A stretch of DNA of 64,000 nt from Mesostigma viride (Eukaryota > Streptophyta > Mesostigmatophyceae > Mesostigmatales > Mesostigmataceae): contig RPFO01001628.1 in the NCBI GenBank assembly GCA_009746045.1, positions 45,351 through 109,350 of the forward strand, in the 5' to 3' direction. Position 1 is the stretch's first letter. Each line of letters begins with the position of its first letter. The notes below the pieces were generated by a model. It was not told where the DNA came from, ran no database searches, and saw nothing but the letters and a program-made list of their open reading frames with translations. The translations under genes were made by a program, and so were the position numbers. Below, one piece after another: positions 1,331-56,008 of the stretch.

Positions 1331-1687
1331 GAGCACGCTCGATACCCCTTCTTTTGCTCAATGCGTCACGCTGAACCGGGCCGTCGTAGAGCCTGACGTC
1401 GTTCCTAAAAGCAACGTGACTGCATCCTCTGTCTCCTTCCGTGATGTGCTCACGCAATCTGTTGATGCTGCTCTGGCTCTGTCGCGCCAGGATCACGTGC
1501 TTCCTGAGCACGGGTCTACAATGCGTGACCTAGGCAATGTGGTGTCTTCTAGGTCGGGTGTGTACAACGCCGAGCGACCAAGCACTACTGCAGCACCCCA
1601 GCTAGATACTGGGGCGGTTGGGCCTATGAGGAATGTTGTGACAGTGCAAGAGAATGCTGGGCGGGCAGATGTTCTCGGTACACACCA
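1047..1687 (+). CDS. E1 gag-pol junction, 5' part of pol (interrupted by FB1)
   Basis: This frame is +1 relative to gag and overlaps its 3' end. It carries a second zinc-knuckle-like motif CRKCHDVLRGHSVEAC (CX2CX6HX4C) at 1209-1256, then a stretch with no recognisable domain up to the FB1 insertion. Past 1687 the ORF reads into FB1 and stops at 1742. If FB1 (1688-2569) and one CACCA copy are removed, this frame continues directly into the integrase ORF after 2574 without a stop, so the two were one gene before the insertion. The real start is uncertain: translation may come by frameshift from gag rather than from the ATG at 1047. Confidence 0.6.
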
Positions 1688-1893
1688 AGTTACGTTAAAT
1701 AGTGCCGGAACCTTTTGCCGCCTGAGGCAAATCGGTCCGTAACACTATTTTGCCCGGAATAACCACTTCCGAGCACCCAAGTTAATTCGGCCGAATTAAC
1801 TTGGGTGCTCGGAAGTGGTTATTCCGGGCAAAATAGTGTTACGGACCGATTTGCCTCAGGCGGCAAAAGGTTCCGGCACTATTTAACGTAACT
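1688..1893. repeat. FB1 palindrome 1 (206 bp, perfect)
   Basis: Centre of symmetry lies between 1790 and 1791 (GTTAATTCGG / CCGAATTAAC). The arms run outward to AGTTACGTTAAATAG at the left and its complement at the right. It is identical to palindromes 2 and 3. Confidence 0.95.
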
Positions 1894-2025
1894 AAAACCT
1901 GGCCTCATGGAGGGGGGACGAAGAGCCCGAGACATCCGCCTAGGCCGCTGAGCACGCACCACTAAATGCGCCGGAACTGCCTCAGTGAGGATTCGAACCC
2001 CTGACCTCCAAGGTGCACAGGTTTT
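1894..2025 (-). repeat. FB1 spacer 1 with tRNA-like B-box
   Basis: 132-bp spacer, repeated identically at 2232-2363. On the minus strand it carries GGTTCGAATCC (plus 1989-1999), an exact match to the tRNA T-arm/RNA polymerase III B-box consensus, within a nearly complete T-arm and acceptor-like 3' segment. No matching 5' half was found, so it is not a tRNA gene. It begins AAAACCTG and ends CAGGTTTT, so its two ends are complementary directly next to the palindromes. Confidence 0.6.
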
Positions 2026-2231
2026 AGTTACGTTAAATAGTGCCGGAACCTTTTGCCGCCTGAGGCAAATCGGTCCGTAACACTATTTTGCCCGGAATAA
2101 CCACTTCCGAGCACCCAAGTTAATTCGGCCGAATTAACTTGGGTGCTCGGAAGTGGTTATTCCGGGCAAAATAGTGTTACGGACCGATTTGCCTCAGGCG
2201 GCAAAAGGTTCCGGCACTATTTAACGTAACT
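2026..2231. repeat. FB1 palindrome 2 (206 bp, perfect)
   Basis: Same sequence as palindromes 1 and 3. Because spacers lie on both sides, its inverted symmetry extends 8 bp further each way (CAGGTTTT/AAAACCTG). Confidence 0.95.
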
Positions 2232-2363
2232 AAAACCTGGCCTCATGGAGGGGGGACGAAGAGCCCGAGACATCCGCCTAGGCCGCTGAGCACGCACCAC
2301 TAAATGCGCCGGAACTGCCTCAGTGAGGATTCGAACCCCTGACCTCCAAGGTGCACAGGTTTT
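2232..2363 (-). repeat. FB1 spacer 2
   Basis: Identical to spacer 1, with the B-box-like sequence at 2327-2337. The exact tandem repetition of spacer plus palindrome points to recombination or template switching between palindromes. Confidence 0.9.
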
Positions 2364-2569
2364 AGTTACGTTAAATAGTGCCGGAACCTTTTGCCGCCTG
2401 AGGCAAATCGGTCCGTAACACTATTTTGCCCGGAATAACCACTTCCGAGCACCCAAGTTAATTCGGCCGAATTAACTTGGGTGCTCGGAAGTGGTTATTC
2501 CGGGCAAAATAGTGTTACGGACCGATTTGCCTCAGGCGGCAAAAGGTTCCGGCACTATTTAACGTAACT
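2364..2569. repeat. FB1 palindrome 3 (206 bp, perfect)
   Basis: Identical to the other two copies. Its right end AACT is followed by CACCA, the right target-site duplication. Confidence 0.95.
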
Positions 2570-2574
2570 CACCA

Positions 2575-3829
2575 CCCTAGTGTGGATCTTCACATTGGCA
2601 AGGTGCTCACACGGGCGGCCTTTCGTGCAGCCTCTGAAGCTGCCCAGTTAGCCAATGTCACTACCCCAGTAGTCACCCCACCTGTTGAGAACCCTGACAA
2701 TGCCACTGCACCTCAGGCTGTCACCCTGAAACTGTTAGCATACCAGATGCACCGTGCATACGGGCATGAGGCCCAAGCCGAGGTAGAGGGGGCACACATG
2801 TTGGGGGCACCTTTATACAACGAGCTGAAGAATGTGCGTGCTCAGTGTCCTGCCTGCATCAAGATCAGGAAGAAGTCGCGTAGGCGGCATGCCAAGACTC
2901 CACCCTTGGAGCGAGGGTACCTTGTGGGGGATGTCATGCACATGGAAGGGGGGGACACCTATTTCATAGTCAAGGATAGGTTCAGCAAGGTCACCTACAT
3001 TGAGCCGCTGCCCCACATGTATGAGGCTGACCTGCACAGGGCTATCAAGATCAGCCTGGCTTTCTTTCATCCCGTAGTGGAGCTCATGCTAGACCAGCAG
3101 TTCCGCTGTGTGCAAGGTTTGCCGGGGATGGAGGCCGTGGTCATCGTGGGGCGTGAGGATCACGGCAATATGGGCATGATAGATCGCACTGTAAGCTATG
3201 TCAAGACTGTGGCAGCCAAGCGACAGGATAACCCACATGGCAAATCCTACGCGGTCAAGACGGCGTGGTGCAAGGAGCTCATGCATGTGTGCAACCATAG
3301 GCACGTGCTTGATGTCAAGGGCTTTGGGCTAGTCACGCCTCGGGGGCTGTCAGCGGGCACCTACTCACCCGAGGTAGTAGAGGCATACCAGCAGCATCTA
3401 CAGGATACCGCCGCCAAGCTGCGGCTCAAGGATGCCACGCTGCCTGATTTGTCTAGCGCTTTTGAGGTCGGGCAGTTGGTCATGTTCCACAAGGAGAGCT
3501 CGCCCAGCGGCAAACGGGGCACCATGCAGGGGCCTGGGGCCATCACAAAGTTAGACTGGCCGCTGCGGGTCATAGACATAGAGTGGAATGATCGGGTGTA
3601 TAGGGTACCATGGGCATCGGTGGCAGGCTATAAGCAAGGGGATAGCATGGAGAGTGAGCTGGCAGCCAACAGGGCACTGGGGTGGGTAGTGAAGGATAAT
3701 GCGCCTGTCGTAGCATCTGAGGTGGTACCCCACGGGTCGCTCCCAGGGGCAGACACAGCTACACCCCCCCCTCCCCTGGGCCCCAATATGACCCCGTGGA
3801 TGGGTGGGATGAGGATGGGGTGGGTTTGA
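2575..3829 (+). CDS. E1 integrase region of pol
   Basis: The frame is open from 2575 right after the CACCA duplication; the first in-frame GTG is at 2582 and no true start is expected, because this is the continuation of pol. Counting from 2582, residues 57-92 hold an HHCC zinc-binding motif (HRAYGH then CPAC). A DDE-type core follows: the first Asp in GDVMHMEGGDTYF, the second in LMLDQQF, the Glu in GREDHGNMG. A basic C-terminal region follows with a WNDRVYRVPW segment. It would insert the cDNA, probably making the 5-bp duplications seen for this lineage. The ORF ends 34 nt inside the next one, which is in the -1 frame, just after a run of eight C at 3764-3771: a candidate slippage site or an indel. 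Confidence 0.75.
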
Positions 3830-6114
3830 CGGGACCTAGTGCACGTAGTGACTCACCTCCTGTGCTAGCCACGGATAATGTGGGAGGCCCGCCTAGCGTG
3901 GCCTCGCCGGAGGGTCAGGGTCCTGCCCATGCGCCTCGCCCACCTAGGGACCTGGCTTCAACGGTCACGGCCTTGTGGCGTGCTCAGGCGCTTAAAGCGA
4001 AAGCTGCATCAGGGGTGGCTCAGGTCAAAACTCTCTCACAGGGGGTCAGGCCGGTTAAGTCAGCCTTGTTTCCTACGTGTAGACCGTGGCAGCTGGTGGC
4101 TGTGGACACGCAAGCATCCGTGTCTATTATCTCTCGTCGGGCAGCCACCCTGTATCCAGTGCTAGAGTCGCCGTACAAATCGGTGACCGACTTTGCAGGC
4201 ACTTCGGCATATCAAGTTACCGGGATGGTGGTGCTGCCGGTGTTGGGCATTGACACGCCGTTTCACGTCGTGGATGGCTACGAGGATGTGGCCTTGCTGG
4301 GCGAACCTTTCGTATCATACCCGGGGTTCTCAGTGTCCGCTGACTTGCTGTCAGTCGCGGGGGTGGGCAGCATCCCGCTTCGCGAGTACCACGCTCCATT
4401 GGGGGTGGTGGTCGGGCAGCCCGGCGTCGTGCGGCGCTTACCGATGGCGGCGTTTTCCACACCGCCGCTCGTCCAGTCCATCATTCAGCCTCAGGATTGG
4501 CACCCGCGCAGCTTCGGCCTCCACTCACACTCACTGGCGGCGGATAGCCCTGTGACGTGGGAGCAACTTGTCCTGGACTGTCAAGATCCTCTCAAGTTTG
4601 CTTTGTGGCGCGACGCGTTCATTCGAGCCAAGGAGCAGTGGCGAGAGCGCGAGGTCTACCGAGGATTGGAGAGTGTGCCAGCCGGGGCCACGCGGTTGCG
4701 GTTGAAGTTCGTGCTCACCTACAAGCCGGACGAGACCAACTCTTCGGTGGTGTTCCGGGTAAGGCCCGTGGTCACGGAGACGAAGGGGTCCTCCCCGCTG
4801 GACGCCAAGGATCTTTATACCCCTGGGCTCAACCATGTTTCGCATCGGCTACTGACGGTCATCTACTTGGGCAAGCGGAACGCGGGCAAGGACTACGGGA
4901 TGTGGTGCGGTGACTTTCAGCGGGCATTCCTCCACAGCGACGCTGGGGTCGCGCAGCAAACATGGCAAGGCACCCGCTACGTGGTGAAGGTCCCGGTGGT
5001 CTGGCAGGATGGCACCATTGGCAGCGAGTATATCGAGCTGTTGACAGGGGTGGAGGGGCTGCAGAGCTCTCCCATCATCTTCCGCATTTCCGCGGAGGAG
5101 GTCTTGCAGAGCTTAGGGGCCACGTACCATCGCGCTGATCCTAACTTCTTTGTGGTCCCCACCGGCGTCCCTGGCGAGCCAGCCCTCTTCGTGTGGCATG
5201 GCGATGACTTCAAGCTGGTGGCACCTCGCACCTTTGCTACCCAGTTTCTTGCTGCAGTGGCGGCTAAGTTTCCCCTGGGCAGGGCGGTGGATCATGAGGA
5301 GGGTAAACCCGTGGTGTTTTGCGGCGTGCAGTCTACGTTGCAGCGGGATTCGCGTTCTGGCGAATGGGTCATGCACATGCAGGATAGCCGCAACTATGTG
5401 GTTGACCTGCTGGCCGACCTCCCGTCCCCGCTGTTGGCAACCCATGGGCCCTCGGTTAAGGGCAAGCTCGGGTGGTTGGCGGACACGGTGGCACCTGATT
5501 TGGCGGTGCTCGCTCGCCTGCCCGATGATGTGCTGGAAGGACTAGGGTCCATTCATGTTCGGCGGCAGCTGGCCATGACGCCCGGCATTGTGCTTCGTGG
5601 GCTCGATTGCTCACAGCCGGTGCACCTCGAGATAGTGACGGATGCTAATCTAGAGACGCGCACAGTCAGCCAAGTGCGGGCCCGCATGGGGGCGCTGTTC
5701 TTTATCAGCAATGAGGGCCAGCCTGGCATGTTGTTAGATTGGTACTCGCGCTTGCACAGCCGCATTGCCACTAGCCCCAACACGGCTGAATGCCGGGGCA
5801 TTGTTTCAGCTATCTCACATGGCATGTGGCTGCGGTACTTGCTGGGTTGGGTATTTGGCTCGTGTGGGTTCACTCTTCACTGGACTAGCACGGTGCACAC
5901 TGACTCACAAAGTTGTTTGGCCTTCCTTGACAATCCCTATGCGCGGTCACAGGACGTTGATTACCTCGTACTCGCTGAGGCGGCCTCCTGCGTCACGCGT
6001 CTCCAGCACATCGCGGATGAACTCAATCCCGCGGATGCACTCACCAAGGAGGCGCGGGAGGCTGCCCCGCAGTACGCAGTGTTGCGCAAGCGCATGACGA
6101 TGCAACACCCGTGA
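3796..6114 (+). CDS. E1 protease-like, reverse transcriptase and RNase H
   Basis: 772 residues, opening at a GTG; it is probably reached by -1 frameshift from the integrase ORF. Residues ~103-175 look like a retropepsin: VDTQASVSIIS, then DVALLGEPF. The usual catalytic Gly of DTG/DSG is Gln, so activity is uncertain. The RT domain follows, with RLKFVLTYKPDE, a GDFQRAFLHSD block, GLQSSPIIF, and the catalytic box WHGDDF at nt ~5194-5211 (copia normally has YVDD). RNase H follows with IVTDANLETRT (~613), NTAECRGI (~660), HTDSQSC (~700) and the ADALTKE motif typical of copia RNase H ends. Element B has the same domains in the same order. Confidence 0.85.
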   Translation: MDGWDEDGVGLTGPSARSDSPPVLATDNVGGPPSVASPEGQGPAHAPRPPRDLASTVTALWRAQALKAKAASGVAQVKTLSQGVRPVKSALFPTCRPWQLVAVDTQASVSIISRRAATLYPVLESPYKSVTDFAGTSAYQVTGMVVLPVLGIDTPFHVVDGYEDVALLGEPFVSYPGFSVSADLLSVAGVGSIPLREYHAPLGVVVGQPGVVRRLPMAAFSTPPLVQSIIQPQDWHPRSFGLHSHSLAADSPVTWEQLVLDCQDPLKFALWRDAFIRAKEQWREREVYRGLESVPAGATRLRLKFVLTYKPDETNSSVVFRVRPVVTETKGSSPLDAKDLYTPGLNHVSHRLLTVIYLGKRNAGKDYGMWCGDFQRAFLHSDAGVAQQTWQGTRYVVKVPVVWQDGTIGSEYIELLTGVEGLQSSPIIFRISAEEVLQSLGATYHRADPNFFVVPTGVPGEPALFVWHGDDFKLVAPRTFATQFLAAVAAKFPLGRAVDHEEGKPVVFCGVQSTLQRDSRSGEWVMHMQDSRNYVVDLLADLPSPLLATHGPSVKGKLGWLADTVAPDLAVLARLPDDVLEGLGSIHVRRQLAMTPGIVLRGLDCSQPVHLEIVTDANLETRTVSQVRARMGALFFISNEGQPGMLLDWYSRLHSRIATSPNTAECRGIVSAISHGMWLRYLLGWVFGSCGFTLHWTSTVHTDSQSCLAFLDNPYARSQDVDYLVLAEAASCVTRLQHIADELNPADALTKEAREAAPQYAVLRKRMTMQHP

Positions 6115-6199: not shown

Positions 6200-6836
6200 A
6201 GTTTTTTTGCTTGTCCTGACCATACCCTAGCCACGTTGGACGGTGCCTTGGGCCCGTCGGCGGGTCACTGGTCCTAATAAATGGGTCACCTTTTGTCTGG
6301 TGGCATAGTTGTTTTTTTCTCGATACTTATTACATCACTATTCATGTGTGATCACAAGGGCGCGGGTCGATACCGTGGTGATTTTGACGGCCTTGAGGCC
6401 CCCTTGAGTTCCCTACCTTAGAGGGTTTTGTATGGTCTGCATTTGATGTAATTATTTTGATAATTAATCAAAGAACAAAAGAGTATGTCGGAGTTGAGTA
6501 ACTCTAGAGCCCTAGGATCTGGCTCTGAGTTCCCCATGTCCGTCCGCACGCCTTCCGCTAGCGTCCGCTCAGCCGCCGGCTATAATCCGGCGGTCCGATG
6601 CGGGCGACCGGTCTAAGGGCGGCGCCTAGGGCCGGCGCCACCTAGGCCCCAGTCCGGGGCCTTATCCGGGTCAGTACGGACGGCTAGCTTGTCCCACGGT
6701 TACGGCTAACCGGATAGGGTTTGCTGGCTAAGACATAAACCAGTGGTGGGCCAGCTCCGACAGCAGTTCTCTGTGTTCACCTTATCCCAAGCTCAACGTG
6801 ACCGACCGCCATAGCTGAGCCGGTCGGGCTTTAACT
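6200..6836 (+). repeat. E1 3' LTR (left border inferred)
   Basis: The right border at 6836 is fixed by divergence from the 5' copy. The left border cannot be measured because the 5' LTR is cut by the window. AGTT at 6200 is the best candidate, because element B and FB1/FB2 all use AGTT...AACT termini and the length (637 bp) is close to B's 616 bp. The true start could lie up to a few hundred bp away. Confidence 0.55.
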
Positions 6837-21322: not shown

Positions 21323-22100
21323 TGTTGGAAAGGTAGAGGAAACTAATGGGTTTTACACAATGCCTTGTGCTTGGCCTTGTTACCCTTGCACCTTGCAGGT
21401 GATGAAAGACTGAGCTTGAAGACAATGGAAGAGAGACCAGAAAAAGAGTTTTATTTCTTAGGCTGAGAGGTTAGGAAAAGAGGTACCTGGCCTTAGGAGC
21501 CAGTTTCTTTTTATACCTTTCTAGCTAGGAAGGATGACATCAGATGCTGATGTCATCATAGAAGCTTGTAGAAACATCTAAGCATATTCCCAGCATATTC
21601 TCAGTATATTCCAGGAATATTCCTGGCATATTCCTAGAACATTCCAAGGTCATTCTAGAAAGGTTCTAATGAGCTGGCATGACAGTTGATTGCCAAATGT
21701 CCTCTGAACAATGTGCCACATCTAATGCTTAATAAAGTGACACATGGTTTCTACTTGGAATGACAAGTGTAATCCAATGAGTCTATCCACTTGTCAGTCA
21801 ATGGAATGCAACACTTGTCACTATGAGCTTCCAACACATGTCAGCTCATGGAATGGACACTTGTCTACCAAAGAAGTACACCACTTGTCAAGCATGGAAG
21901 TGATGCTACTAGACCAACTCAGGTACAAGAGATCTATGGCCAAATATAGGACTATGGCACATGAACATTGATCAGCTCATTGAGAGCAATTCATCTAACT
22001 TATCAAATCTATCAAATTCTCAGCCCTTGTGAAGTAAAACAAAGAAGAATAAAGTCAGGCTGGAATATAGTGTGGGCAGGTGGGTATATGATCCCCAACA
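21323..22100 (-). repeat. Element C 3' LTR
   Basis: 778 bp. Begins TGTTGGAAAGG on the plus strand and ends CCCCAACA, so both ends carry the inverted TGTTGG/CCAACA. Confidence 0.97.
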
Positions 22101-22113
22101 CCCCCCTTAGCCA
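22101..22113 (-). promoter_or_regulatory. Element C polypurine tract
   Basis: Minus strand AAGGGGGG immediately before the 3' LTR. Confidence 0.85.
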
Positions 22114-22128
22114 GCTGAACACAAAGGA

Positions 22129-25100
22129 CTAAGTTGACATGAGTTTGCCACGCAGGGCAGTGAACCTGGCACGTGAAAGTGCCTTCGTCAGAAGATCAGC
22201 AAGCATGTCCTCCCCAGGACAATGCTTCATGGCGATGAGTCCCCCCTCCACCTTCTCCCGGATGAAATGGAAACGCACGTCAATGTGCTTCGTGCGCTTG
22301 GGATGAACAGGGTCACGAGCGAGTGCCACGGCGCCTGTGTTGTCGCAGAAGACAGGCGTGGGCCCCTGAACTGGATGCCCCAGCTCCCCCAACATGTGCC
22401 TCAGTGGAAGCACTAGCTGGGTTACGCTGCTAGCAGCAATGTACTCCGCCTCGCAGGAAGACAGGGCGGTAACGTGCTGCTTGCGGCTGCACCACTCGAC
22501 TGCGGCCCCCCTGAACATCACTACATTGCCAGAGACAGATCTGCGTGTCTCAGGGCAGTTCCCCCAATCGGCATCCGTCCACCCCTCCAGCCCCCCTTGG
22601 CCACCATAGCGCAGTCCCAAGTCCTTGGTGTGGACAAGGTAGCGCACCACTCGCTTGGCCAGCTCCAAGTCGCCCTCCGTGGGTGCCTGCATGCATTGGG
22701 CCAGCTGGTTGACAGCAAAAGCAATGTCTGGGCGCGTCCATGTCGCGGCGTACATGAGAGCACCAACAATCTGCTGAAAGAGTTGATGGTTTGGGGCATC
22801 ACACATTCCCCCCTCGCGACGGGGACTACCAGGCACTATAGGGGTGTGCACAGGGTGAGGGGTAGAAAGCCCAAAACGGGCAGCAATAGCTTCAATGTAG
22901 GGCCGTTGGTGCATGGTAAGGGAACGAGACGCAGGGTCGATAGTAAGGGAAACACCGAGGAAAAGAGAGGGATTGTCCGACTCAGTGATTTGAAAAGTAT
23001 TAGCCAAACGGCGAGACCAGGATGCCAGCCAGGAAGGGGAAGGATGAGCAGCAAGAATGTCATCGACGTGCACGAACACGAAACCACGAGACGAAGGGTA
23101 GTAATACAGGCACGCATCAATTTGGCTTTGGATGGCGCCGTCAGAAAGAAGGTGTGCACGGAACGTTTTATGCCAATTGCGTGGCGCTTGCTTGATGCCA
23201 TACAAGCTGCGGTGCAGCTTCCACACAAGCACATCGCCATTGGCATCCCGCTCTTCAAAGCCAGTAGGGGGACGCACAAAGACATCCTCCTGTAGGGGAG
23301 CATAGAGAAAAGCGGTTCGGACATCGAGCTGCTTGACAGTAAAGCCAGACGTGACAGCTAAAGCAAGAGCAAGTCGCACGGTGGACGCACGAACAGTGGG
23401 GGAAAAGACTTCATTAAAGTCGATACCTTCACGTTGGGCAAAACCTTTCACGACAAACCTGGCCTTGTGACGGCCGTCGGACTTGACAGCAAATACCCAC
23501 CGGGAAGGGAGGACCTTGGCACCGGCGGGCAAAGTACGCGGGCTCACAAGCGAGTATACTGCATGATCACGAATGCTATTAATTTCGCTCAACATCGCAG
23601 CCCGCCACTCTGGACTGTTGTTAGCCTCAGTAAAGGAGACGGGAAGGGAAACGTCACTGCCAGTAAAATGCACTGTGTCAAAAAGATCACGAACTGACTG
23701 GTAATGCGGAAAAAAACGAGCCCATTTAGGCGACACCGTGACAGGGGGAGCATAGGTAGTAATCTCCATCGCGAGGGGTTCACGGGTGCTACCGCAAAAC
23801 ATCAGCTCATCAGCAGTTGCCATGGCGACATTACCAGCTGGGTTACGTCGCAGCGCAGAGATTGTACTTTGCAGTCGAGCAGCACTTGAAGTGGCAGTGA
23901 CCGGTGGACCAGCAGACAGCTCCCGTGCGTCACTTGGGGAGACGTCGTCAGTAGTTAGGACGGGCTGTGAAAAGTTTGGAGCACCGTCGAGCGCCTCCGG
24001 AACTGGTCTAGGACTTGGGACGTTGACTGCATCAGGACTTGGTGCGTCCGCTCCCTCGTGGCGAAGCTCCTCAGGAATATCCCTTCTGGTGGCGTCCAGA
24101 AACCTCGCCTGAGACCGGGTGACCGGTCCGCTAGGTTCGGCCAGAGAATTTGGCTGAACTTCTGCTACAGCCGGAAGATCAGTTGGTGAAGTTTCCTCCA
24201 GTGCGGCAGAACTTTCCAGAAGCGGCGCAGGAGTTGGCATGGCCCCATTGCGCCAGGCCTCATTGAAGGTGACATGCAGGCGGCGAATGACATCCTTGGA
24301 TTCTGGACGGTAAATGAGGTACGCCGGCGATTCCAGATCATAGCCGACGAAGATTCCAGGCAGAGCCTTGGCCTCCAGCTTGCCACGTGGGCCCTCCACC
24401 CGATAGAAGGCAGGGCAGCCGAAAATTCGAAGATTCGAGAGATCCGCATTGCGACCGGTGAGCAGGAAGTGTGGCGTGGCACCTCCAGGATTCGAGCTAG
24501 ACGGCAGGCGGTTAAGTATATAAACCGCGCAATTGAAGGCTAGTGCCCAGAATCCTTTGGGCAAACCGGCATGCGTGAGCATTGCCAGTGTCATGCCCAT
24601 GGCCAGACCCCACAGCCGCTCCGCCACTCCGTTCTGCTCAGGAGTGTAGGGGCTGGAGAACTCCTGGTGCACTCGGTGTTCAGCGCAGACGGCCCGCCAC
24701 GCCTGCCCAGTGAAGACTGCGTCGTTGTCGGTCCGGAGAAGAATCGAACCGTTGTAGAAGGGGCGAATTTCGCGCGCGAGCAGCTGTTGCAAGGCGTCAA
24801 CAGCCTCGTCCTTGTGTCGAAGCGGAAAGCACCATCGCCAGCGGGTAGCATCGTCGGTGAAGCCGAGCATGTAGCGGGCGCCTCCAATTGCTGGCTGCAT
24901 CGGCCCGAGAATGTCGCTGTGAAGCTTGGCTCGGGGAACAGTCGATCGGAGCTGTCCAGGCGAAAATGAGCGCCTCTTGATGAAGCCAGCAGGGCAGGAT
25001 GGGCAGCCAGGCGATGACAGGCGCCTCGAAAAAAGGTTAGACTCCGGAATGGCGGCCAGCCTCTTGATCCGATCTTCGCCAGCATGCCCAAGACGCCAGT

Positions 25101-26472
25101 GCCAGAGCAGGCTCGCCGGCCGCTCGATGGCCGTGGCAGCCATTGCCGCCTCGTCGCGCTCCGCAGGTAACACGTAGATGTTGTTCTGCAGCGCAATCTT
25201 GTGCGTCTCGTTGTCCAGCACCACTGTCTGCTCGGTGAGGTCGACTTTGTGGCCGTCCTTGGCGAGCTGCCCAGCTGATAGCAGTCGGGCGCTCAAGCCG
25301 GGCACGAAGAGCGCACCATTCAGGTGCACATGCTGGTTGGGCAGTTTGAGCCGAATCGTGCCCACTCCCGTCGCGCGAAGACGTCCTCCTGATCCGACGA
25401 TGTTCCTAGTGGTGGGGGTGAGGGACACAAAGTCAGTGCGGCATGGGGACATGTGGCTGCTTGCAGCGGAGTCCAGAACCCAGGCAGGGGGCTTGGGGCT
25501 ATACTGCGTGAGTGCAGCAGCCTCCTGCGACGGCGCCGACTCGGCGATGGTGGTGAAGACGAAGCCCTCCGGCAGCTCCGCGGCCTCCTGGGTGTTGTTG
25601 GCCACGCTTCCGCCAGGTGAGGTCTCCTTCTTGGTCGCTTGGTTGCCCCTCCTGCGCTGGTTGCCCCGCCGTCCTTGGTTCTTGCTTCGTGGCTTGAGCT
25701 GGGAGTTCTTTTGCCAGCACTGGGTCTCCGCATGCCCACTCCTGTTGCAGTAGGCGCAGTGCTTCCTCTCACCACCCTTGTTGGCAGTGTGGAAAGCTTG
25801 ACCTTGGGCTGGCTCCTCCTTGGTAGCTTGAGAAGGCCGTCCTCCCAGCAGCATGTCCTCCGCCTCCAGCAGCGCAGCCTTGACCTCCTCCAAGCTGTCC
25901 TCCTCTTTGAAGTGCGCTGAAATCAGGGCAGGGCGATATCGGTCAGGCAGGCCGCTCTTGAGGATAGCCGCAAAATCTTGGTCGCTCATGACGCCTCCCA
26001 CCGCACGGTAGTCCGCCAGCAGCAGCAATCCACGTAGGATATACTGCCCCATGGTCTCCCCAGGCTTCATTTGCAGCCGGTGAAGCTGAATCCTGAGGTC
26101 CATGCGGTGACTCTTGGTGAGCTTTTGTTGCTCGTAGACCTCCCTCAGCGTCTTGTAGAGCTTGCTGCCAGATTGGTCTGGCACGAGCGATAGGATGCGC
26201 CTCGCTTCTCCCACAAGTGCAGCTGAGATGACAAGGCCAACAGCTTGGTCAGCCTTGCGGTCCTGCCTGGTGCCCAGCAGGACGTCCTTAACCTCATAGA
26301 AGGAACAGAAACCCTCAAGAGATGTCTTGGTCTCCTCCCAGCCACGTAGGCTTGTGCCATCGAATTTCAGCACCATCTTGGAGCACACATTCAGCATAGG
26401 AGTGTAGTCGACGTCGCTTGCCATGGAGCTTGTAGCTGGGCTGGGTTTCTTGGTGGTCTTCTTGGAGCTCAT
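22129..26472 (-). CDS. Element C Gag-Pol polyprotein
   Basis: 1447 residues in one frame, ATG 8 bp after the primer site. Order: copia-type Gag (residues ~25-210), zinc knuckle CAYCNRSGHAETQC (~237), protease with DSAASSH (~333), HHCC integrase zinc region (HWRLGH, then CPSC), integrase core with D in LHSDILGP (~520), D in RTDNDAVF (~582) and E in PEQNGVAER (~611), RT with AFLYAPLQEDVFV and the VHVDDIL box (~1137), RNase H with TDADWGN (~1300), SCEAEYIA (~1340) and HIDVRFHFIRE. All key residues are present, the length is normal for copia and the order is the standard PR-INT-RT-RH, unlike its host element B. Expression presumably starts from the LTR at 26492-27269. Confidence 0.97.
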   Translation of the reverse strand: MSSKKTTKKPSPATSSMASDVDYTPMLNVCSKMVLKFDGTSLRGWEETKTSLEGFCSFYEVKDVLLGTRQDRKADQAVGLVISAALVGEARRILSLVPDQSGSKLYKTLREVYEQQKLTKSHRMDLRIQLHRLQMKPGETMGQYILRGLLLLADYRAVGGVMSDQDFAAILKSGLPDRYRPALISAHFKEEDSLEEVKAALLEAEDMLLGGRPSQATKEEPAQGQAFHTANKGGERKHCAYCNRSGHAETQCWQKNSQLKPRSKNQGRRGNQRRRGNQATKKETSPGGSVANNTQEAAELPEGFVFTTIAESAPSQEAAALTQYSPKPPAWVLDSAASSHMSPCRTDFVSLTPTTRNIVGSGGRLRATGVGTIRLKLPNQHVHLNGALFVPGLSARLLSAGQLAKDGHKVDLTEQTVVLDNETHKIALQNNIYVLPAERDEAAMAATAIERPASLLWHWRLGHAGEDRIKRLAAIPESNLFSRRLSSPGCPSCPAGFIKRRSFSPGQLRSTVPRAKLHSDILGPMQPAIGGARYMLGFTDDATRWRWCFPLRHKDEAVDALQQLLAREIRPFYNGSILLRTDNDAVFTGQAWRAVCAEHRVHQEFSSPYTPEQNGVAERLWGLAMGMTLAMLTHAGLPKGFWALAFNCAVYILNRLPSSSNPGGATPHFLLTGRNADLSNLRIFGCPAFYRVEGPRGKLEAKALPGIFVGYDLESPAYLIYRPESKDVIRRLHVTFNEAWRNGAMPTPAPLLESSAALEETSPTDLPAVAEVQPNSLAEPSGPVTRSQARFLDATRRDIPEELRHEGADAPSPDAVNVPSPRPVPEALDGAPNFSQPVLTTDDVSPSDARELSAGPPVTATSSAARLQSTISALRRNPAGNVAMATADELMFCGSTREPLAMEITTYAPPVTVSPKWARFFPHYQSVRDLFDTVHFTGSDVSLPVSFTEANNSPEWRAAMLSEINSIRDHAVYSLVSPRTLPAGAKVLPSRWVFAVKSDGRHKARFVVKGFAQREGIDFNEVFSPTVRASTVRLALALAVTSGFTVKQLDVRTAFLYAPLQEDVFVRPPTGFEERDANGDVLVWKLHRSLYGIKQAPRNWHKTFRAHLLSDGAIQSQIDACLYYYPSSRGFVFVHVDDILAAHPSPSWLASWSRRLANTFQITESDNPSLFLGVSLTIDPASRSLTMHQRPYIEAIAARFGLSTPHPVHTPIVPGSPRREGGMCDAPNHQLFQQIVGALMYAATWTRPDIAFAVNQLAQCMQAPTEGDLELAKRVVRYLVHTKDLGLRYGGQGGLEGWTDADWGNCPETRRSVSGNVVMFRGAAVEWCSRKQHVTALSSCEAEYIAASSVTQLVLPLRHMLGELGHPVQGPTPVFCDNTGAVALARDPVHPKRTKHIDVRFHFIREKVEGGLIAMKHCPGEDMLADLLTKALSRARFTALRGKLMST

Positions 26473-26479
26473 GAAGATT

Positions 26480-26491
26480 CCTCCGATACCA
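26480..26491 (-). promoter_or_regulatory. Element C primer-binding site
   Basis: Minus strand TGGTATCGGAGG directly after the 5' LTR, the same site as in element A; initiator-Met-like. Confidence 0.85.
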
Positions 26492-27269
26492 TGTTGGAAA
26501 GGTAGAGGAAACTAATGGGTTTTACACAATGCCTTGTGCTTGGCCTTGTTACCCTTGCACCTTGCAGGTGATGAAAGACTGAGCTTGAAGACAATGGAAG
26601 AGAGACCAGAAAAAGAGTTTTATTTCTTAGGCTGAGAGGTTAGGAAAAGAGGTACCTGGCCTTAGGAGCCAGTTTCTTTTTATACCTTTCTAGCTAGGAA
26701 GGATGACATCAGATGCTGATGTCATCATAGAAGCTTGTAGAAACATCTAAGCATATTCCCAGCATATTCTCAGTATATTCCAGGAATATTCCTGGCATAT
26801 TCCTAGAACATTCCAAGGTCATTCTAGAAAGGTTCTAATGAGCTGGCATGACAGTTGATTGCCAAATGTCCTCTGAACAATGTGCCACATCTAATGCTTA
26901 ATAAAGTGACACATGGTTTCTACTTGGAATGACAAGTGTAATCCAATGAGTCTATCCAATTGTCAGTCAATGGAATGCAACACTTGTCACTATGAGCTTC
27001 CAACACATGTCAGCTCATGGAATGGACACTTGTCTACCAAAGAAGTACACCACTTGTCAAGCATGGAAGTGATGCTACTAGACCAACTCAGGTACAAGAG
27101 ATCTATGGCCAAATATAGGACTATGGCACATGAACATTGATCAGCTCATTGAGAGCAATTCATCTAACTTATCAAATCTATCAAATTCTCAGCCCTTGTG
27201 AAGTAAAACAAAGAAGAATAAAGTCAGGCTGGAATATAGTGTGGGCAGGTGGGTATATGATCCCCAACA
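26492..27269 (-). repeat. Element C 5' LTR
   Basis: 778 bp, near-identical to the 3' LTR. Followed on the plus strand by the AGGAC duplication (27270-27274). Confidence 0.97.
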
Positions 27270-29891: not shown

Positions 29892-31617
29892 TTAACTCGT
29901 CGTCTGTCCCAACTCAGTCCTCACAGGAGGACTGAGTTGACAATTTTCAACCGCGTGTAGCGACTAGGTGGGGGGTCCATCCCAAATGTTTTGATGTGGA
30001 TCTGGGGTGTACTAGATATCATTTTGTTGGCAAAAATACTGCATATGTGAAAACTTGACCCAAACACCTGAAAATTACACGGACGTTGGGCGCCCCTCGC
30101 GAATTTGCATTTTTCGGGATAAGAACGAGTGGGAAAAATTCAATCAAATCCTGGTGCATGAAGAAAAAATATAGGCATGTAAACAACATAGTTCTTGAAG
30201 CGTGGCAAAAAACTGGGCTCCATTTGGCCACTGCAACTGCCTGAAACAATTAAAAAACTCTCAGTCCTCAGGAGAGGAATGGGGCTTTTGCTAACTTTGC
30301 TAGCATGTAAGTGCGGTCATACTACATCACCGTGGCCACCAACCATCCCAATCAACTCATTTCCCTTCAAGCATTACAGGACAACACACTTGCATCATCA
30401 TACTTCAGGTATATCATACCTTATCATGTAGTGAGAGCCTATGCATGCATGTAGGGAATGGGCTTGGATACCTACCAACAAAGGGTTATGTTATAAGTGT
30501 CAACCACCAATATAATGGGTAGGTTAAGCATATTTCCATTGTTTCAAACAACAATAGATATGGCTATAACTGTTTTGCCTTGCCATGATGTGGCCAACAT
30601 AGTTGCTGGCACATGATGGCAGTGGTTTGTCACCAAGACTTTTCACTCACCCGTAAAAGCTTGAATGCACCCTTGACGCAGCCCGTGGCCACACAATCAT
30701 GCAGTATGAACGTAGCAAAAGAATAACTAACATCTATGAAGGTGTTTAAACCTGCACAGCTCCTAAAACCCTGCACAACTACACTGGGTTAAGGCAAATG
30801 CCTGCTAACATCATCTGAAAAGGGGGTTTTAGAGAGGGGCAGGCAACGGTCAAGAAAGAGCATCAAGACTTGAACCTGACAACGCCTCGCAAGCTTAAAC
30901 TCATGTACGAACATCAAGGAACGAAGAGGCAACGATTATCCGGCTTTACCTGGCACGGCTGGCGTTACCTTGGCCCAGGCGGTGCCCGCAAAAGTGGCAC
31001 TTTGCGGCACATAGACCATGACGTGACAGAATGGTCGAGATCATCAAATCTATACTGTCACTCAATATATTCTAATACAAATCATGTTAACATGTAGAAA
31101 GAAACCTATCAGCCATTGAAATTGCGCCGGAAAGCAAGCGCAGTAATCAATTCCGTCGACCTGCCTTATCGCAGTTTTTTCCAGCAAGAACAGTGCCGAC
31201 ACCGGGTAAATCGCATCCCCGCGAGCTAAAAATTGATTTATATCATCTTTAGGGCATGTTAAATCTATTTACTGAGTTTGGACGGCTAACTCGTCCGCAA
31301 ACGTAAACTGCATGCATGGGCGCGAGCCGCCATGGCTAGGTCGTGCATTTCCGGAACTCGCGTTTCACGTGGAAAAGTACCCTTACCACCTGTACTTTGA
31401 CCGTACAGTTAGCCGCGCATACCAAATCCAAAAAAATCCCAAAAATATGTCCAAGAAAGATCTTTTCACGTAGTATTTGAATAAATTTTGAGAGAATTTT
31501 TTTGTCAAACATTCTGACCGGGGCGAATTTTCTACGAAACCCAAAAACTCGGTCCTCTAGAGAGGACTGAGTTCAACTCAGTCCTCCGTAGAGGACCAGG
31601 GACAGACGACGAGTTAA
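29892..31617. mobile_element. TTAA-flanked DNA element T1 in element B gag
   Basis: Bounded by TTAA on both sides (29892-29895, 31614-31617), with terminal inverted repeats TTAACTCGTCGTCTGTCC and its complement. Subterminal hairpins built on ACTCAGTCCTC/GAGGACTGAGT lie at each end, one at the left and a double one at the right. About 1.7 kb, no ORF with a recognisable transposase, so probably non-autonomous. TTAA targets with seamless frame restoration fit piggyBac-type (or Kolobok-type) transposition. A second full copy, inverted, is T2. Confidence 0.9.
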
Positions 31618-32152
31618 AGCCATGAGCTCTGCCCTCCTCAACCATTTTACAATAGTTGAGAAAATTCTGGATGAGGTCTCCTTTGACCTCCCACCCTTGG
31701 TATTTATCCTGCCAATGGATCCCCACTTTCTTCCGTTGATCCTCTAGCAGCTCCCTCAGCTCTGCCACGTAGACTGCCCAGGCCTTGTTGGCCTTCTTGC
31801 ACTCTCTAGTGAGGTCTTTAATCTGATCTGTGCACTTGCCAAAAGTCTGGCTGCCTATCCAGATCTGATAATAGTTTGTACCACCGTACAAGCTTGGAAA
31901 CCCCTCTAGTCCTTCCACAAACTCCTCTGCCTGTTTTGGCTTTGAGTCTGAAGTGACAGGTTGCAGCTGATTAACAATAAGGAGACCCTGTGTGGTGAGA
32001 TCATATCCAGAGACAGCATGTGTATTATTATTAATAGGCACATTGGTAATCTCGCCGGTAACCCCCACGTCATCTACGTGAGCGGTCCCGCTACCAGCAC
32101 CCCCATTATTATTCCCACTGGCTAGGCCCTTGCTACGGCGTCCCTCAGCCAT
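31618..32152 (-). CDS. Element B Gag, 5' part
   Basis: ATG at 32152 (MAEGRRSKG). 178 codons run to the T1 border; the remaining residues down to 31532 are T1 sequence. Contains a conserved-looking stretch LEGFPSLYGGTNYYQIWIG and a long amphipathic helix with Lys/Glu/Leu repeats, as expected for a capsid protein. No named domain assigned. Confidence 0.75.
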
Positions 32153-34920: not shown

Positions 34921-35285
34921 CTACAATTTGCTACCGATGCCGCTGCTGGTGCTTTTTTGCATGTCAGTGCCCGCTATGTTCACACCACTGTTGCCGCGGT
35001 TGGTATCGCGTGATTTCCACCGGTTGTGCGTTGACATGTGTTACTCATGCATTTCCCCCTATATTTGGTAGCACGCGCGGTTTCGCGTTAGTTAGGTGCA
35101 GACAGCTGCATGTAGACAAACATCTTGTTTAAGTCCGTCAATTAACTGTTCTTGACGCATCATGGTCCAAGTCGACCGACCTGTAGGGACCAGTAGAGCA
35201 ATTGTCTAGGAGAAAGAGCGTGATCGCTGCAGAAGCCGCGTGGCAGCCGTGGCTGTACCTGTAGTACGACCTGCATATATATACG
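34921..35285. other. Unassigned DNA
   Basis: No supported gene. A short ATATATATAC stretch precedes the 5' border of LINE copy R1. Confidence 0.5.
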
Positions 35286-36460
35286 GCAGCGCCTGACCTC
35301 CTGGACCCCAGCAGCCCTTTGCCCTTCGTCACCGCCATCCAGGAGGCCTATGCTGAGATCCAGCAGGCCTGTTCTCCCGTCCGTGCCGCTCAGGCGGTAC
35401 AGCGCCACCTCCCTCGCGGCACTCCCTCGGTCGCCTCCGTTCAATCTCCCGCCGCATTCCCTGCTCGCGTCATCGATAAACACCAGAAAACCTACGCGGG
35501 TATTCTGCACACGGCTGATTGGATTGCTCTTTTCGCGGACCTCAACGCCCAGGGACGTGCGTGGCTGTTCTCGCTTTCCTTGCGGAGTGTGGGCTCGGCG
35601 TACCTTCGTGCTCTTCCCATGGCCCCCCATTCGCCTTGGCTCCCAGCCACTACTCGGTGGCGCTCCGGCACCAGCTATTTGCCCCGCAGCCTCTTGTTCC
35701 GGCCGGGCGGCCTTGTGGTAGCTGTGGGCAGCCGCTGGATCCCACGGGGACTCACTACCTTGCCTGCATGGGGGGCCAACAGAATCAGAATTGGTATTTG
35801 TATTTGCACACTGTCCTCCTGACGGTGGTGCTCGCCATGATTCGGTCGGTTTTCCCCCACGCGAACATCCGGTCCGAGGATGCGGATGGCGCTGCCTTCT
35901 ATTCCCCAACCACCGGCCTGACATCGTGGTGCTGGACTTTGAGGGGGGTGGCCGGCATCTGCTTATCGACGTTTCGGTGGCGCGGCCCTTGGCTCTTAGC
36001 CACGTGGCTGGGGCCTCCCTCACGGCAGGTTACACGGCGGACCGGGCGGAGCGGGCCAAGCTCCTGGCCTACGGCGACGTCGGGCACCATCGTGTGGTGC
36101 CCTTTGTCCTGGAGGAGTTTGGGGCCATGGGGCCCCTGACCTCCGCCTTCTTCAAGGAGTGTTGCCGGCTCCGGGAGGACCGGCTGGACCTGGAGGGCCA
36201 GCGGGCCTCATGGTCGGCGCGGACCTGGACGTCATATTGGCGTCAGCGCTTGTCGGTGGCGCTGACTCGGGCCATGGCTGACATCATGCTCCGCCGTACG
36301 CGGGCTGATTTTGCGGTGCAGCAGGGCTATTAGGTTCCTCCCGTTAGAAGTTTCCATTGGTCTTATCGTAGTATAGAGATTTGACATGGCTCTGTATAGA
36401 GGTTTATAGCTGGGCGTTTGCTTTGGTTTGAGTGATTTCACTCTGCTGTAAGTAATTATA
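35286..36460 (+). mobile_element. RLE-type LINE copy R1, 5'-truncated
   Basis: Contains only the C-terminal part of the ORF plus 3' UTR, with frameshifts (frames 35319, 35519 and 35791 must be joined). Nearly identical to R3 but in the opposite orientation. The 3' end has the hairpin GAGTGATTTCACTC followed by GTAAGTAATTATA. No clear duplication found. Confidence 0.75.
35319..36333 (+). pseudogene. R1 C-terminal RT/endonuclease remnant
   Basis: Reads LPFVTAIQEAYAEIQQAC..., then the CGSCG...H zinc region and RPDIVVLDFEGGGRHLLIDVSV (restriction-like endonuclease core), ending at 36333. At least two frameshifts relative to the intact R2 ORF. Not functional. Confidence 0.75.
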
Positions 36461-36479
36461 TTACGAACCGGCCTTTGCG

Positions 36480-39125: not shown

Positions 39126-40648
39126 TAAAAATATAATTACTTACAGCAGAGTGAAATCACTCAAACCAAAGCAAACGCCCAGCTATAAACCTATATACAG
39201 AGCCATGTCAAAGCTCTATACTACGATAAGACCAATGGAAACTCCTAACGGGAGGAACCTAATAGCCCTGCTGCACCGCAAAATCAGCCCGCGTACGGCG
39301 GAGCATGATGTCAGCCATGGCCCGAGTCAGCGCCACCGACAAGCGCTGACGCCAATATGACGTCCAGGTCCGCGCCGACCATGGGGCCCGCTGGCCCTCC
39401 AGGTCCAGCCGGTCCTCCCGGAGCCGGCAACACTCCTTGAAGAAGGCGGAGGTCAGGGGCCCCATGGCCCCAAACTCCTCCAGGACAAAGGGCACCACAC
39501 GATGGTGCCCGACGTCGCCGTAGGCCAGGAGCTTGGCCCGCTCCGCCCGGTCCGCCGTGTAACCTGCCGTGAGGGAGGCCCCAGCCACGTGGCTAAGAGC
39601 CAAGGGCCGCGCCACCGAAACGTCAATAAGCAGATGCCGGCCACCCCCCTCAAAGTCCAGCACCACGATGTCAGGCCGGTGGTTGGGGGAATAGAAGGCA
39701 GCGCCATCCGCATCCTCGGACCGGATGTTCGCGTGGGGGAAAACCGACCGATCATGGCGAGCACCACCGTCAGGAGGACAGTGTGCAAATACAAATACCA
39801 ATTCTGATTCTGTTGGCCCCCCATGCAGGCAAGGTAGTGAGTCCCCGTGGGATCCAGCGGCTGCCCACAGCTACCACAAGGCCGCCCGGCCGGAACAAGA
39901 GGCTGCGGGGCAAATAGCTGGTGCCGGAGCGCCACCGAGTAGTGGCTGGGAGCCAAGGCGAATGGGGGGGCCATGGGAAGAGCACGAAGGTACGCCGAGC
40001 CCACACTCCGCAAGGAAAGCGAGAACAGCCACGCACGTCCCTGGGCGTTGAGGTCCGCGAAAAGAGCAATCCAATCAGCCGTGTGCAGAATACCCGCGTA
40101 GGTTTTCTGGTGTTTATCGATGACGCGAGCAGGGAATGCGGCGGGAGATTGAACGGAGGCGACCGAGGGAGTGCCGCGAGGGAGGTGGCGCTGTACCGCC
40201 TGAGCGGCACGGACGGGAGAACAGGCCTGCTGGATCTCAGCATAGGCCTCCTGGATGGCGGTGACGAAGGGCAAAGGGCTGCTGGGGTCCAGGAGGTCAG
40301 GCGCTGCTGTTGCCAAAAGGGGCAGGAGCCGGCAGCTTTCCGCCCACGACTGAGCGACGGAGCCCAAAAATGCTGCTGGGGCCAGCCGGGCGGCACGAGT
40401 CAGACCGCAGCCACCCATCCGTGCAGGCAGGGAGGCAATGCGAATAGCATGTGGCGGGAGGTCGGGGCCCGGGACCAGCTGCGCCAAGGCCGACTGGATG
40501 CGTTCGTCGTGGCCCTCGGCGGCCAGCCGGACCTGAGCCGGAAGAGCGCCCCGGAGCCAGTGAACGACGCGAGGGTGAGCGCAAAACCACAGAAGCAGAC
40601 CCTTGGTCTGCGAATCATGAAGGCGCGCAATCAAGGGCAGTACCTCCC
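39126..40648 (-). mobile_element. RLE-type LINE copy R3, 5'-truncated, minus strand
   Basis: Flanked by the 11-bp duplication TGAATATATAT (39115-39125 and 40649-40659). The 3' end on the left shows the same GAGTGATTTCACTC hairpin and AT tail as R1. It starts at the RT thumb region, so it is 5'-truncated. Confidence 0.85.
39259..40634 (-). pseudogene. R3 C-terminal RT/endonuclease part
   Basis: First frame 40634 down to about 39760 (TKGLLLWFCAHPRVVHWLRG ... CGSCG ... GGQQNQNWYLYLH), then a frameshift to the frame ending at 39259, which carries RPDIVVLDFEGG and LLIDVSVARP. Same family as R2, about as long as R2's last half. One indel near 39750 breaks it. Confidence 0.8.
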
Positions 40649-53168: not shown

Positions 53169-53904
53169 TAGGAACTAATCCCTGGAACAGGATGTGAATT
53201 ACATTAAGCTGGGCGGCGATGGCGGAGGTGGTGGTGGTGGTGTGGTTCATCAGCATGGCTGCCCAGGTCTGGGTGGGAGGGGCATCGCCGGCAGGGCCAG
53301 CAGGGGCTGCAGGCCGGGCGGCGATGTCCTTCACCGCCTGGGCAGTGATGCCTGCGGTGTTTTGCAGTCGATGGCGATGGCATTGTCCTGCAGGCGTTTG
53401 TCGATGGCGAGGAGCTGGGCGGTGAGGGCGTCGGTGGTGGTGGCCGGGTGGAGGCGAGGAGCTTGGAGGTGGCGGTGGTGGCGGAGGAGAGTAGGGAAAG
53501 CTCAGCAGCCAGCGTGCCGCCCATGGGCGCCACATCTGCGGCGAGGGGTGTCACGTGCTGCACTACGGCCTGGTTGATGATGGAGCGGATTTCGGAGGTG
53601 GAATGCATGGAATTAGTGGGAGCCCAGATCTCGGCGACAGAGCGCCCGAGGAGGGAGCAGAGGGCAAGGAGCTGAAGGCGGGGGCGGGGGAAGCTGGACA
53701 GATCCGGCGCGAAAGCACCGACCACGCGGCCAGGCGGAATGAGGCGACCTTGGACGTAAAGGTGCTGGCACAGGGCAAGAAGCGAGGTGCGCGACCCGTA
53801 GAACAGGGCGCTCATAAGCTGGGTGGGCGGGCTTGACCTCCATGTGGTTGAGGTGACGTCAAAGTCGATTTCGATCTTTCCAGCTCGGCTCGGCAGGGGG
53901 CCGA

Positions 53905-54110
53905 AGTTAGGTTAATATTGCGCGGAAACCTTTTTGCCACTTGGGCTACTCAGGTTCCGCACAATATTACCGGCGATAACCACTCGCCGGACACTCAAGT
54001 TCACGACGTCGTGAACTTGAGTGTCCGGCGAGTGGTTATCGCCGGTAATATTGTGCGGAACCTGAGTAGCCCAAGTGGCAAAAAGGTTTCCGCGCAATAT
54101 TAACCTAACT
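53905..54110. repeat. FB2 palindrome 1 (206 bp, perfect)
   Basis: Starts AGTTAGGTTAATATTG and ends with its complement; no loop at the centre (CACGAC/GTCGTG). Confidence 0.95.
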
Positions 54111-54346
54111 AAAACCTAGCCTCTTGGGGCGAGGACGAATCACTAGGCTCGGAACACCCGTATGCATGAATATGATCGAATATAAGCATCTCGTTGGTGC
54201 AAATATCGATATGAATATGATCGAATATGAGCATCTCCTTGGTGCGCATATGATTAGAGCCGGGTGCCAAATCGGAACGAATTATTCCCCCAAATAATCC
54301 GCTTCCGAGTGGATTCGAACCTGCGCCCCGCAAGGATCCAGGTCTT
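54111..54346 (-). repeat. FB2 spacer with B-box-like sequence
   Basis: Minus strand GGTTCGAATCC at plus 54311-54321, as in FB1. Starts AAAACCTAGCCTC and ends AGGTCTT: again complementary ends next to the palindromes, with one mismatch. Inside, a ~60-bp unit with GAATATGATCGAATAT and GAGCATCTC is repeated about twice (54165-54250). Confidence 0.7.
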
Positions 54347-54556
54347 AGTTAGGTTAATATTGCGCGGAAACCTTTTTGCCACTTGGGCTACTCAGGTTCC
54401 GCACAATATTACCGGCGATAACCACTCGCCGGACACTCAAGTTCACGACGTTGTGAACTTGAGTTAGTGTCCGGCGAGTGGTTATCGCCGGTAATATTGT
54501 GCGGAACCTGAGTAGCCCAAGTGGCAAAAAGGTTTCCGCGCAATATTAACCTAACT
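54347..54556. repeat. FB2 palindrome 2 (near-perfect)
   Basis: As palindrome 1 but with TAGT inserted right of the centre and a C-to-T change, so the hairpin would have a small bulge. Confidence 0.95.
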
Positions 54557-54715
54557 GCCGATATCCTCAGGGCGGCTGCGTTTAGGCTCAGGCGATGCAG
54601 AGGGCGAGGCAAGCCCGGGAGGGGGCTGGGCAAGTTCCACCAGTGCGCGACTAGTGTCACCGCTGCCTTCCGGGCCTGAGGGCGAAGCTGCAGCCGGATC
54701 GAGCTGCAGACGCAT

Positions 54716-55410: not shown

Positions 55411-55443
55411 GTACCCCCAAACACGCAGGGAGGGTGGGCGGGA

Positions 55444-55877: not shown

Positions 55878-56008
55878 TTCTATTAACCGTGGAACTCCAG
55901 GGTAACCAGACTCTTTATTAAAACAATGAGTGGAGCACATACAAAAGGCAGGCCACATCCCGGCCGCCGATGCTCATGGGAACACTTATTGCTTGGCAAA
56001 GGCTAGCC
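55878..56008 (-). repeat. Y1 split repeat B1
   Basis: 131-bp direct repeat of B2, downstream of the ORF in element sense. Confidence 0.9.

Follow-up and report, generated by a model that had tools for sequence, protein, structure and literature searches.

How does a genome come to hold three exact copies of a loopless palindrome, spaced as the repeats of a long terminal repeat (LTR) element would be? We addressed this question for the element FB1 in a stretch of 64,000 nucleotides of Mesostigma viride DNA (contig RPFO01001628.1, positions 45,351 to 109,350), the whole of which we call the window. An earlier note on this DNA had described perfect palindromes in exact copies, with ends AGTT/AACT and a duplication CACCA, and exact string tests bear out each of these points. 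FB1 consists of three perfect, loopless 206-bp palindromes, each its own reverse complement and identical to the other two, which are separated by two identical spacers of 132 bp (repeat period 338); its termini are AGTT/AACT, with CACCA on either flank. The statement that every copy is exact holds for FB1, but not for the second element of the window, FB2, whose palindrome 2 carries a 4-bp insertion and one substitution. The features of both elements are as follows.

1683..1687, no strand, left target duplication CACCA of FB1 (exact string; a single CACCA in the empty site)
1688..1893, no strand, FB1 palindrome 1, 103+103 bp without a loop (exact string test)
1894..2025, plus strand, FB1 spacer 1 (sp+), 132 bp, AAAACCTGG...CAGGTTTT (exact string test)
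1979..2066, minus strand, FB1 region matching the tRNA-like stretch of locus L039, with outer stem GCCTCAG/CTGAGGC and B box (position by inspection)
1989..1999, minus strand, B box GGTTCGAATCC in FB1 spacer 1 (converted position)
2026..2231, no strand, FB1 palindrome 2 (exact string test)
2232..2363, plus strand, FB1 spacer 2 (sp+), same as spacer 1 (exact string test)
2327-2337, minus strand, B box in FB1 spacer 2 (motif position)
2364..2569, no strand, FB1 palindrome 3 (exact string test)
2570..2574, no strand, right target duplication CACCA of FB1 (exact string test)
53900..53904, no strand, left target duplication GCCGA of FB2 (exact string test)
53905..54110, no strand, FB2 palindrome 1, perfect, 206 bp (exact string test)
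54111..54346, plus strand, FB2 spacer, 236 bp (exact string test)
54311-54321, minus strand, B box GGTTCGAATCC in the FB2 spacer (motif position)
54347..54556, no strand, FB2 palindrome 2, 210 bp, its right arm having the 4-bp insertion and the substitution (string comparison)
54557..54561, no strand, right target duplication GCCGA of FB2 (exact string test)

Apart from FB1's three palindromes and the first of FB2, a scan of the whole window returned only one palindrome, imperfect and with 32-bp arms. Aligned over 101 positions, the arms of FB1 and FB2 agree at 66. Direct repeats (3-132 and 6707-6836, 100% alike and extending further upstream) enclose FB1, which has open frames on either side; one of these frames, 3721-6111, matched no Pfam family, and calling it Copia-like is a reading only. 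Elsewhere the window holds a young Copia element (21323-27269; LTRs 99.9% alike, ends TGTT/AACA, duplication AGGAC) with the primer binding site (PBS) TGGTATCGGAG and one long open frame carrying rve and RVT_2; the best relative of this frame (22129-26511), 66% identical over 78%, is in a Mesostigma viride protein set. Positions 55440-60603, where direct repeats (238 bp, 98.7%) enclose a frame of 1,393 aa that matches tyrosine recombinases (Phage_integrase), look from the sequence like a DIRS/Ngaro-type retroelement. There are also 1.7-kb inverted repeats, 98% alike and about 11 kb apart (29892-31625 / 42894-44630), and within them, near RVT_1 frames, a second inverted pair (35283-36462 / 39130-40310).

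We searched the whole assembly (440 Mb, 2243 contigs) with the ends of both elements. The terminal 32-mer of FB1 gave 1651 forward and 1672 reverse matches with up to 3 mismatches, and a 34-mer of FB2 gave 341 and 335 genome-wide, with no match for either control. As one palindrome yields one forward and one reverse match, these figures count palindromes rather than elements, and correspond to about 1,650 of FB1 type and 340 of FB2 type, in agreement with the earlier suggestion that FB2 is a diverged sister and that the two belong to a family rather than to a one-off rearrangement. The empty FB1 site, in which the flanks are joined through a single CACCA, occurs 251 times (113 + 138, up to 3 mismatches; control 0) and is exact at every place among the matches listed, which shows that the FB1 insertion and its CACCA target duplication are real. 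FB1 has thus inserted into one copy of a sequence that is itself repeated in the genome.

For a closer analysis we resolved 50 different elements into palindromes and spacers; 30 belong to the FB1 group and 20, with the chimera L099 among them, to the FB2 group. They come from the best 100 of 3,323 FB1 matches and the best 100 of 676 FB2 matches, then taken in contig order, so that damaged and diverged copies are under-sampled; L012 (the same as L014) and L092 (a copy of L091 with inverted flanks) were left out. The earlier note had staked its view on further copies with 5-bp duplications and AGTT/AACT ends, and perfect 5-bp duplications indeed flank 43 of the 50 elements, with an extension to 6 bp in only 1 of 41 tested. 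One locus, L095, proved to be two elements with a duplication each (CCCTA and CATGG), and the seven elements without a duplication (L043, L047, L048, L049, L086, L088, L089) have truncated or rearranged ends. Among 41 duplications tabulated as target sites, C at −1 / G at +1 and G at −5 / C at +5 each reached 41 of 82 after symmetrising, against an overall composition of 0.29 each for C and G. This weakly symmetrical target fits a dimeric enzyme with a fixed stagger better than LINE-type priming.

Perfect loopless palindromes are known as a type of long-read artefact (PMC12870357), and we asked whether FB1 might be an error of assembly or of foldback reads. We give this almost no credence and reject it: contigs reach 14 Mb and 43 sampled insertions have duplications of their own, which makes a blanket artefact very unlikely; the FB1 empty site recurs 251 times, spacers separate the palindromes, and individual loci have variants of their own.

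Patterns that exclude FB1 and FB2, used to look for a third family, matched 10 places, of which three were inspected: L104 is a variant of FB1, and L105 and L106 are FB1 copies with damage; another such pattern matched 1 place. Both L105 and L106 start with the arm's final 12 bp (GTTAACSTAACT) beside the spacer, in unrelated flanks, a recurrence that may be bias, since the search selected for it. No autonomous partner was found among the 50 sampled elements, and an exact 30-mer of the arm had no match in a viral collection that may omit the window's own genome.

The earlier note had likened the layout to LTR-internal-LTR-internal-LTR, but 26 of the 28 three-palindrome elements sampled have opposed spacers, in the order palindrome, sp+, palindrome, sp−, palindrome (14 FB1, 11 FB2 and 1 chimera), none has the reverse order, and two are direct, namely the window's FB1 (with a duplication) and L049 (without). 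The LTR-like layout is thus the rare form of the family, and a typical element is, as a whole, close to one large inverted repeat. In all 26 convergent elements the B-box end (see below) of every spacer points to the middle, and 26 +− against 0 −+ has p = 3e-8 if both are equally likely. The count leaves out L048 (rearranged) and the first element of L095 (a truncated +−, third palindrome and second spacer being truncated), and it scores L084, L087, L090 and L096 by spacer orientation despite one damaged palindrome in each. Among longer elements, all five regular four-palindrome elements are ++− (L103, L037, L050) or +−− (L033, L100; the same order on the opposite strand), the rearranged L048 is a four-palindrome ++−, and L039, with five palindromes, is +−+−. 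Two palindromes are found in WIN2, L007, L025, L036, L040, L042, L102 (with a 27-bp spacer remnant) and the second element of L095, and, in damaged form, in L047, L086, L088 and L089; L028 (duplication AAGGG) and the damaged L043 are solo palindromes.

The spacers also carry a conserved motif. Read in (−) sense through arm' and spacer, both families carry the B box GGTTCGAATCC (11/11 match) at 130 nt (FB1) and 129 nt (FB2) from the palindrome centre, a spacing that is kept despite spacers of 132 vs 236 bp. The box stands at the palindrome/spacer border, within the spacer rather than the repeat. The FB2 arm matches the A-box pattern (TGGCAAAAAGG), and FB1's arm gave no match to it. TRGCCTCKTGG in the (+) strand spacer was discarded as an A box, because FB1 and FB2 place it at distances from the B box that are about 100 nt apart, and because the B box on the (+) strand is imperfect. 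Of four loci scanned, one (L039, on either side of one variant palindrome) gave a match to the Rfam tRNA model, at 25.6 bits, below the gathering score of 29, with a perfect 7-bp outer stem; ARAGORN found no tRNA within the window. No ribozyme appeared among the cmscan matches in four FB loci at E up to 5, on which ground we dismissed a retrozyme, and the Rfam microRNA and Dictyoglomi-1 matches, all below gathering, were taken as generic matches to long hairpins.

The arms themselves may fold as RNA. The loop of the first predicted stem-loop, GTGGTTA, is identical in FB1 and FB2, and 3 of the 7 pairs of its stem are changed on both sides between the families, 1 on one side and 3 not at all; in the outer stem of the second stem-loop, 1 of 7 pairs is changed on both sides. 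Fold z-scores were −3.0 to −5.0 against mononucleotide shuffles. The stems compared are those of single folds, with pairs matched by hand from the loop outward; RNAalifold on the two-arm alignment paired different positions and was not used. The apparent likeness of the folds and their compensatory changes, in a comparison of two sequences, is supportive only.

Signals of LTR replication were sought beside the palindromes. Neither spacer contains TGGTATC on either strand, TGG does not stand at the spacer start on the (−) strand, and the (+) strand of FB2 lacks the TGG of FB1; by inspection, no polypurine tract (PPT) is present at the spacer ends CACAGGTTTT, GGCCAGGTTTT, TCCAGGTCTT and GCTAGGTTTT. 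Two LTR elements of the same window carry TGGTATCGGAG as primer site, and the FB spacers have no canonical PBS. Where LTR retrotransposons end in TG...CA, FB1 and FB2 end in AGTT...AACT. The earlier comparison with small LTR elements survives in part: the family partly resembles a TRIM of the Pol III type, but canonical LTR logic does not account for its main form.

The halves of one element can differ in origin. In L099 (C1106:9756800-9759200), the left side is FB2 (palindrome, spacer and arm) and the right side FB1 (arm', spacer in opposite orientation and palindrome), with one duplication, GGAGG, around the whole. At the join the sequence is CACGACGT-TC-GGCCGAA, unless FB1 sequence extends a few nt more; a second FB2/FB1 centre, at C1779, has an ambiguous join point. 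Within the FB1 group, L031 has variants 38 and 54 in its left half and mostly 15 and 54 in its right, the halves meeting in the central palindrome, and L035, L038 and L041 have G at position 6 only in the right half. The outer or central palindromes of L010, L044 and L045 differ beyond a simple scheme of two halves, to which recombination or conversion must therefore be added.

Arm variation was analysed over 103 positions in 158 full-length arms from 30 elements. The mean number of differences was 0.64 within one palindrome (74 arm pairs), 1.15 across one spacer (48 pairs), 1.62 for other arms of the same element (270) and 2.75 between elements (12,011 pairs). None of the 48 across-spacer pairs was discordant at positions 6 and 13, while other arms of the same element were at 9% and 6%, and 32 of 66 marker pairs had all four combinations. 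These results indicate that palindromes act as matched units and that copies are mosaic; gene conversion could explain both as well as template switching.

Where the order is broken, some breaks fall at a defined point, 2 nt past the palindrome centre (+2). Junctions of 18 irregular loci include four that break exactly there: L048, where AATTCGGCC is followed by AGTT, L033, where the tip of L048 is joined within an arm, and L098 and L085, which break after CACGACGT. Three more (L090, L020, L049) are compatible with +2 through shared bases, and 11 are not clearly at +2 (L034, L042, L043, L047, L084, L086, L087, L088, L089, L095, L096). The FB2 side of the chimera L099 also breaks at +2. Genome-wide, the FB1 tip is followed within 0-8 nt by AGTTASGTTAA at 11 places (control 0), through CC in 6 (that is, +2; L048 included), CCT in 1, CCGTTTT in 3 and TTTT in 1, and the single FB2 tip join has exactly GT (+2). 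For 7 of 12 joins to fall at one of nine gap lengths has a chance of 1e-4, assuming independent matches. A +2 end joined to AGTT is what a template jump would give that left an RNA at its 5' end and resumed at an RNA 3' end; joining an opened DNA hairpin to an end made by excision would give the same junction. At their palindrome centres, L098, L033 and L048 hold partial or whole extra arms, which record which ends were joined.

We propose that the element behind FB1 and FB2, which are two of its families, is RNA-templated, non-autonomous and mobilised in trans, a proposition for which we see the chances as evenly balanced. RNA would start about 2 nt before the centre of each palindrome and, after arm', would cross the (−)-sense spacer and then the outer palindrome, ending in ...AACT. 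Its reverse transcript would be a cDNA with a self-complementary 3' tip (..GGCC-3' in FB1, ..ACGT-3' in FB2), and two cDNAs, copied from the same or different RNAs, could pair at these tips and prime or ligate one another. The product would have an RNA 3' end at each outer end and a regenerated palindrome in the middle, and an LTR-element integrase, or an enzyme comparable to it, would insert it at a 5-bp staggered cut. On such a scheme of half-units, a solo palindrome would be arm + arm, a monomer arm + unit, and a convergent dimer unit + unit; ++− would combine a unit with a dimer read-through, and +−+− two read-throughs.

The excess of +− over −+ (26 vs 0) would be explained by the polarity of the RNA, and the ++−/+−− four-palindrome elements and the +−+− of L039 are as the half-unit scheme predicts. 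The RNA-templated reading is further favoured by the chimera L099 and the mixed halves of L031, L035, L038 and L041, by the +2 ends (in L048, L033, L098, L085 and the FB2 side of L099, and in 6/11 and 1/1 of the genome-wide joins), by the conserved B box, the compensatory changes in the arm stems and the mosaic arms, and by the constant 5-bp duplication in a symmetrical target. Against it stand the lack of a canonical PBS or PPT in FB, the lack of an autonomous partner among the sampled elements, a tRNA match that is below gathering and in one of four loci, the lack of an A-box match in FB1, and irregular junctions that are mostly not clearly at +2. Moreover, the direct elements (FB1, L049) need one half to be read in the other orientation, L010, L044 and L045 need the added recombination or conversion, and the exact end at AACT has no explanation, for RNA or DNA. 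The mechanism is weakest where it places an RNA 3' end at AACT and where it lacks an autonomous partner. More tentatively, and with our judgement leaning somewhat against it, FB may represent a type of retroelement that normally produces two cDNAs fused head to head, in which the palindrome is the region of the RNA start, its tip makes the cDNA 3' ends self-complementary, and both genomic ends are RNA 3' ends.

An alternative is that FB is a foldback transposon moving as DNA only, the palindrome being a minimal inverted-repeat element that a DDE transposase mobilises with a 5-bp stagger; composites, with two palindromes or three, would move jointly, and hairpin or cruciform tips opened 2 nt past the centre would rejoin into dimers. 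The solo palindrome L028 with its own duplication speaks for such a route, as do the many internal deletions within palindromes and the likeness of the arms of one palindrome (0.64 vs 2.75 between elements), which cruciform conversion would give; hairpin opening 2 nt past the tip also occurs with other enzymes. This alternative, however, gives no reason for 26 +− against 0 −+, leaves the conserved B box without a role and has no autonomous copy among the sampled elements; we hold it to be unlikely, if a contender to be reckoned with.

The same orientation count weighs on the idea of a TRIMp3-type LTR retrotransposon with a palindromic LTR, in which primer-driven replication produces palindrome-spacer-palindrome and recombination between palindromes later produces dimers: spacer inversion by recombination predicts −+ as often as +−, and no canonical PBS or PPT adjoins the palindromes. 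This decidedly improbable model does account for monomers with 5-bp duplications (FB2, L007, L025, L036, L040) and for a B box of Pol III type; LTR elements of the window also have 5-bp duplications, and tandem arrays of about three LTRs are known for Cassandra (PMC7215508). Two-sided target-primed reverse transcription, similar to twin priming, would start from the 3' ends of a 5-nt staggered cut, priming on two RNAs whose cDNAs meet in mid-element. It would directly explain the central join and the presence of the same RNA end on either outer side, but in target-primed elements the duplication is usually variable and 5' truncation frequent, whereas the duplication is 5 bp in 43 of 50 elements and extends to 6 in only 1 of 41 tested, so that we allow it a slim chance. 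Two narrower readings were ruled out, a plain tandem LTR array by the spacer orientation count, and the snap-back of a single cDNA as sole route by halves of different origin.

If the RNA-templated reading is true, the elements solve second-strand synthesis through self-complementary cDNA tips and show a route by which long perfect palindromes are made and kept in genomes, and their many young marked insertions are a natural assay of which molecules joined, and where. Head-to-head cDNA fusion, if true, would be replication without PBS, PPT or strand transfer, in which the perfect palindrome is remade each time. For annotation, we expect short-read assemblies and LTR or MITE finders to split or collapse FB arrays.

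FB shares features with several known systems. Foldback and MITE-type DNA transposons (FB/NOF, and Galileo of Drosophila) have long inverted repeats, non-autonomous copies and target duplications, as do FB1 and FB2, and by inverted repeats with a target duplication FB would count as a foldback transposon; unlike FB1 and FB2, such transposons are not, to our knowledge, loopless palindromes in polar convergent arrays. Penelope-like elements, with terminal repeats either direct or inverted, and twin-primed LINEs, with inverted halves within one insertion, are similar to FB, but their duplications are variable, and Penelope-like elements also have hammerhead ribozymes. FB is a short non-coding element with terminal repeats and a duplication of 5 bp (43/50), within the 4-6 bp of TRIMs. 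The two terminal repeats of TRIMs are in direct orientation; the palindromes of FB are without orientation, and the orientable spacers are inverted in 26/28 three-palindrome elements. In literature searches that mostly took in journals outside subscription, we recognised no description of a palindromic LTR element or of convergent dimers. The closest known elements are TRIMp3 (Helenus, Cassandra), which the FB families resemble in part, and we do not class them there. Helenus is a TRIMp3 with a tRNA-like sequence in the LTR (Kojima 2024, PMC10886601) and, like FB, is small and non-coding, with a Pol III-type box B, solo terminal repeats and, in plants and fungi, 5-bp duplications. It has ordinary LTRs with PBS and PPT, in contrast to the perfect palindromes of FB, where no canonical PBS or PPT was seen, and differs in that the main form of FB is a convergent dimer whose boxes straddle repeat and spacer. 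Cassandra is a TRIM with a 5S promoter (PMC7215508). The Pol III promoter in its terminal repeat is comparable to the putative Pol III-type signals of FB, and, like FB, it forms arrays in which internal domains separate about three repeats; the arrays of Cassandra are described as direct tandems with the primer site TGGTATCAGAGC, whereas those of FB lack the site and are mostly convergent.
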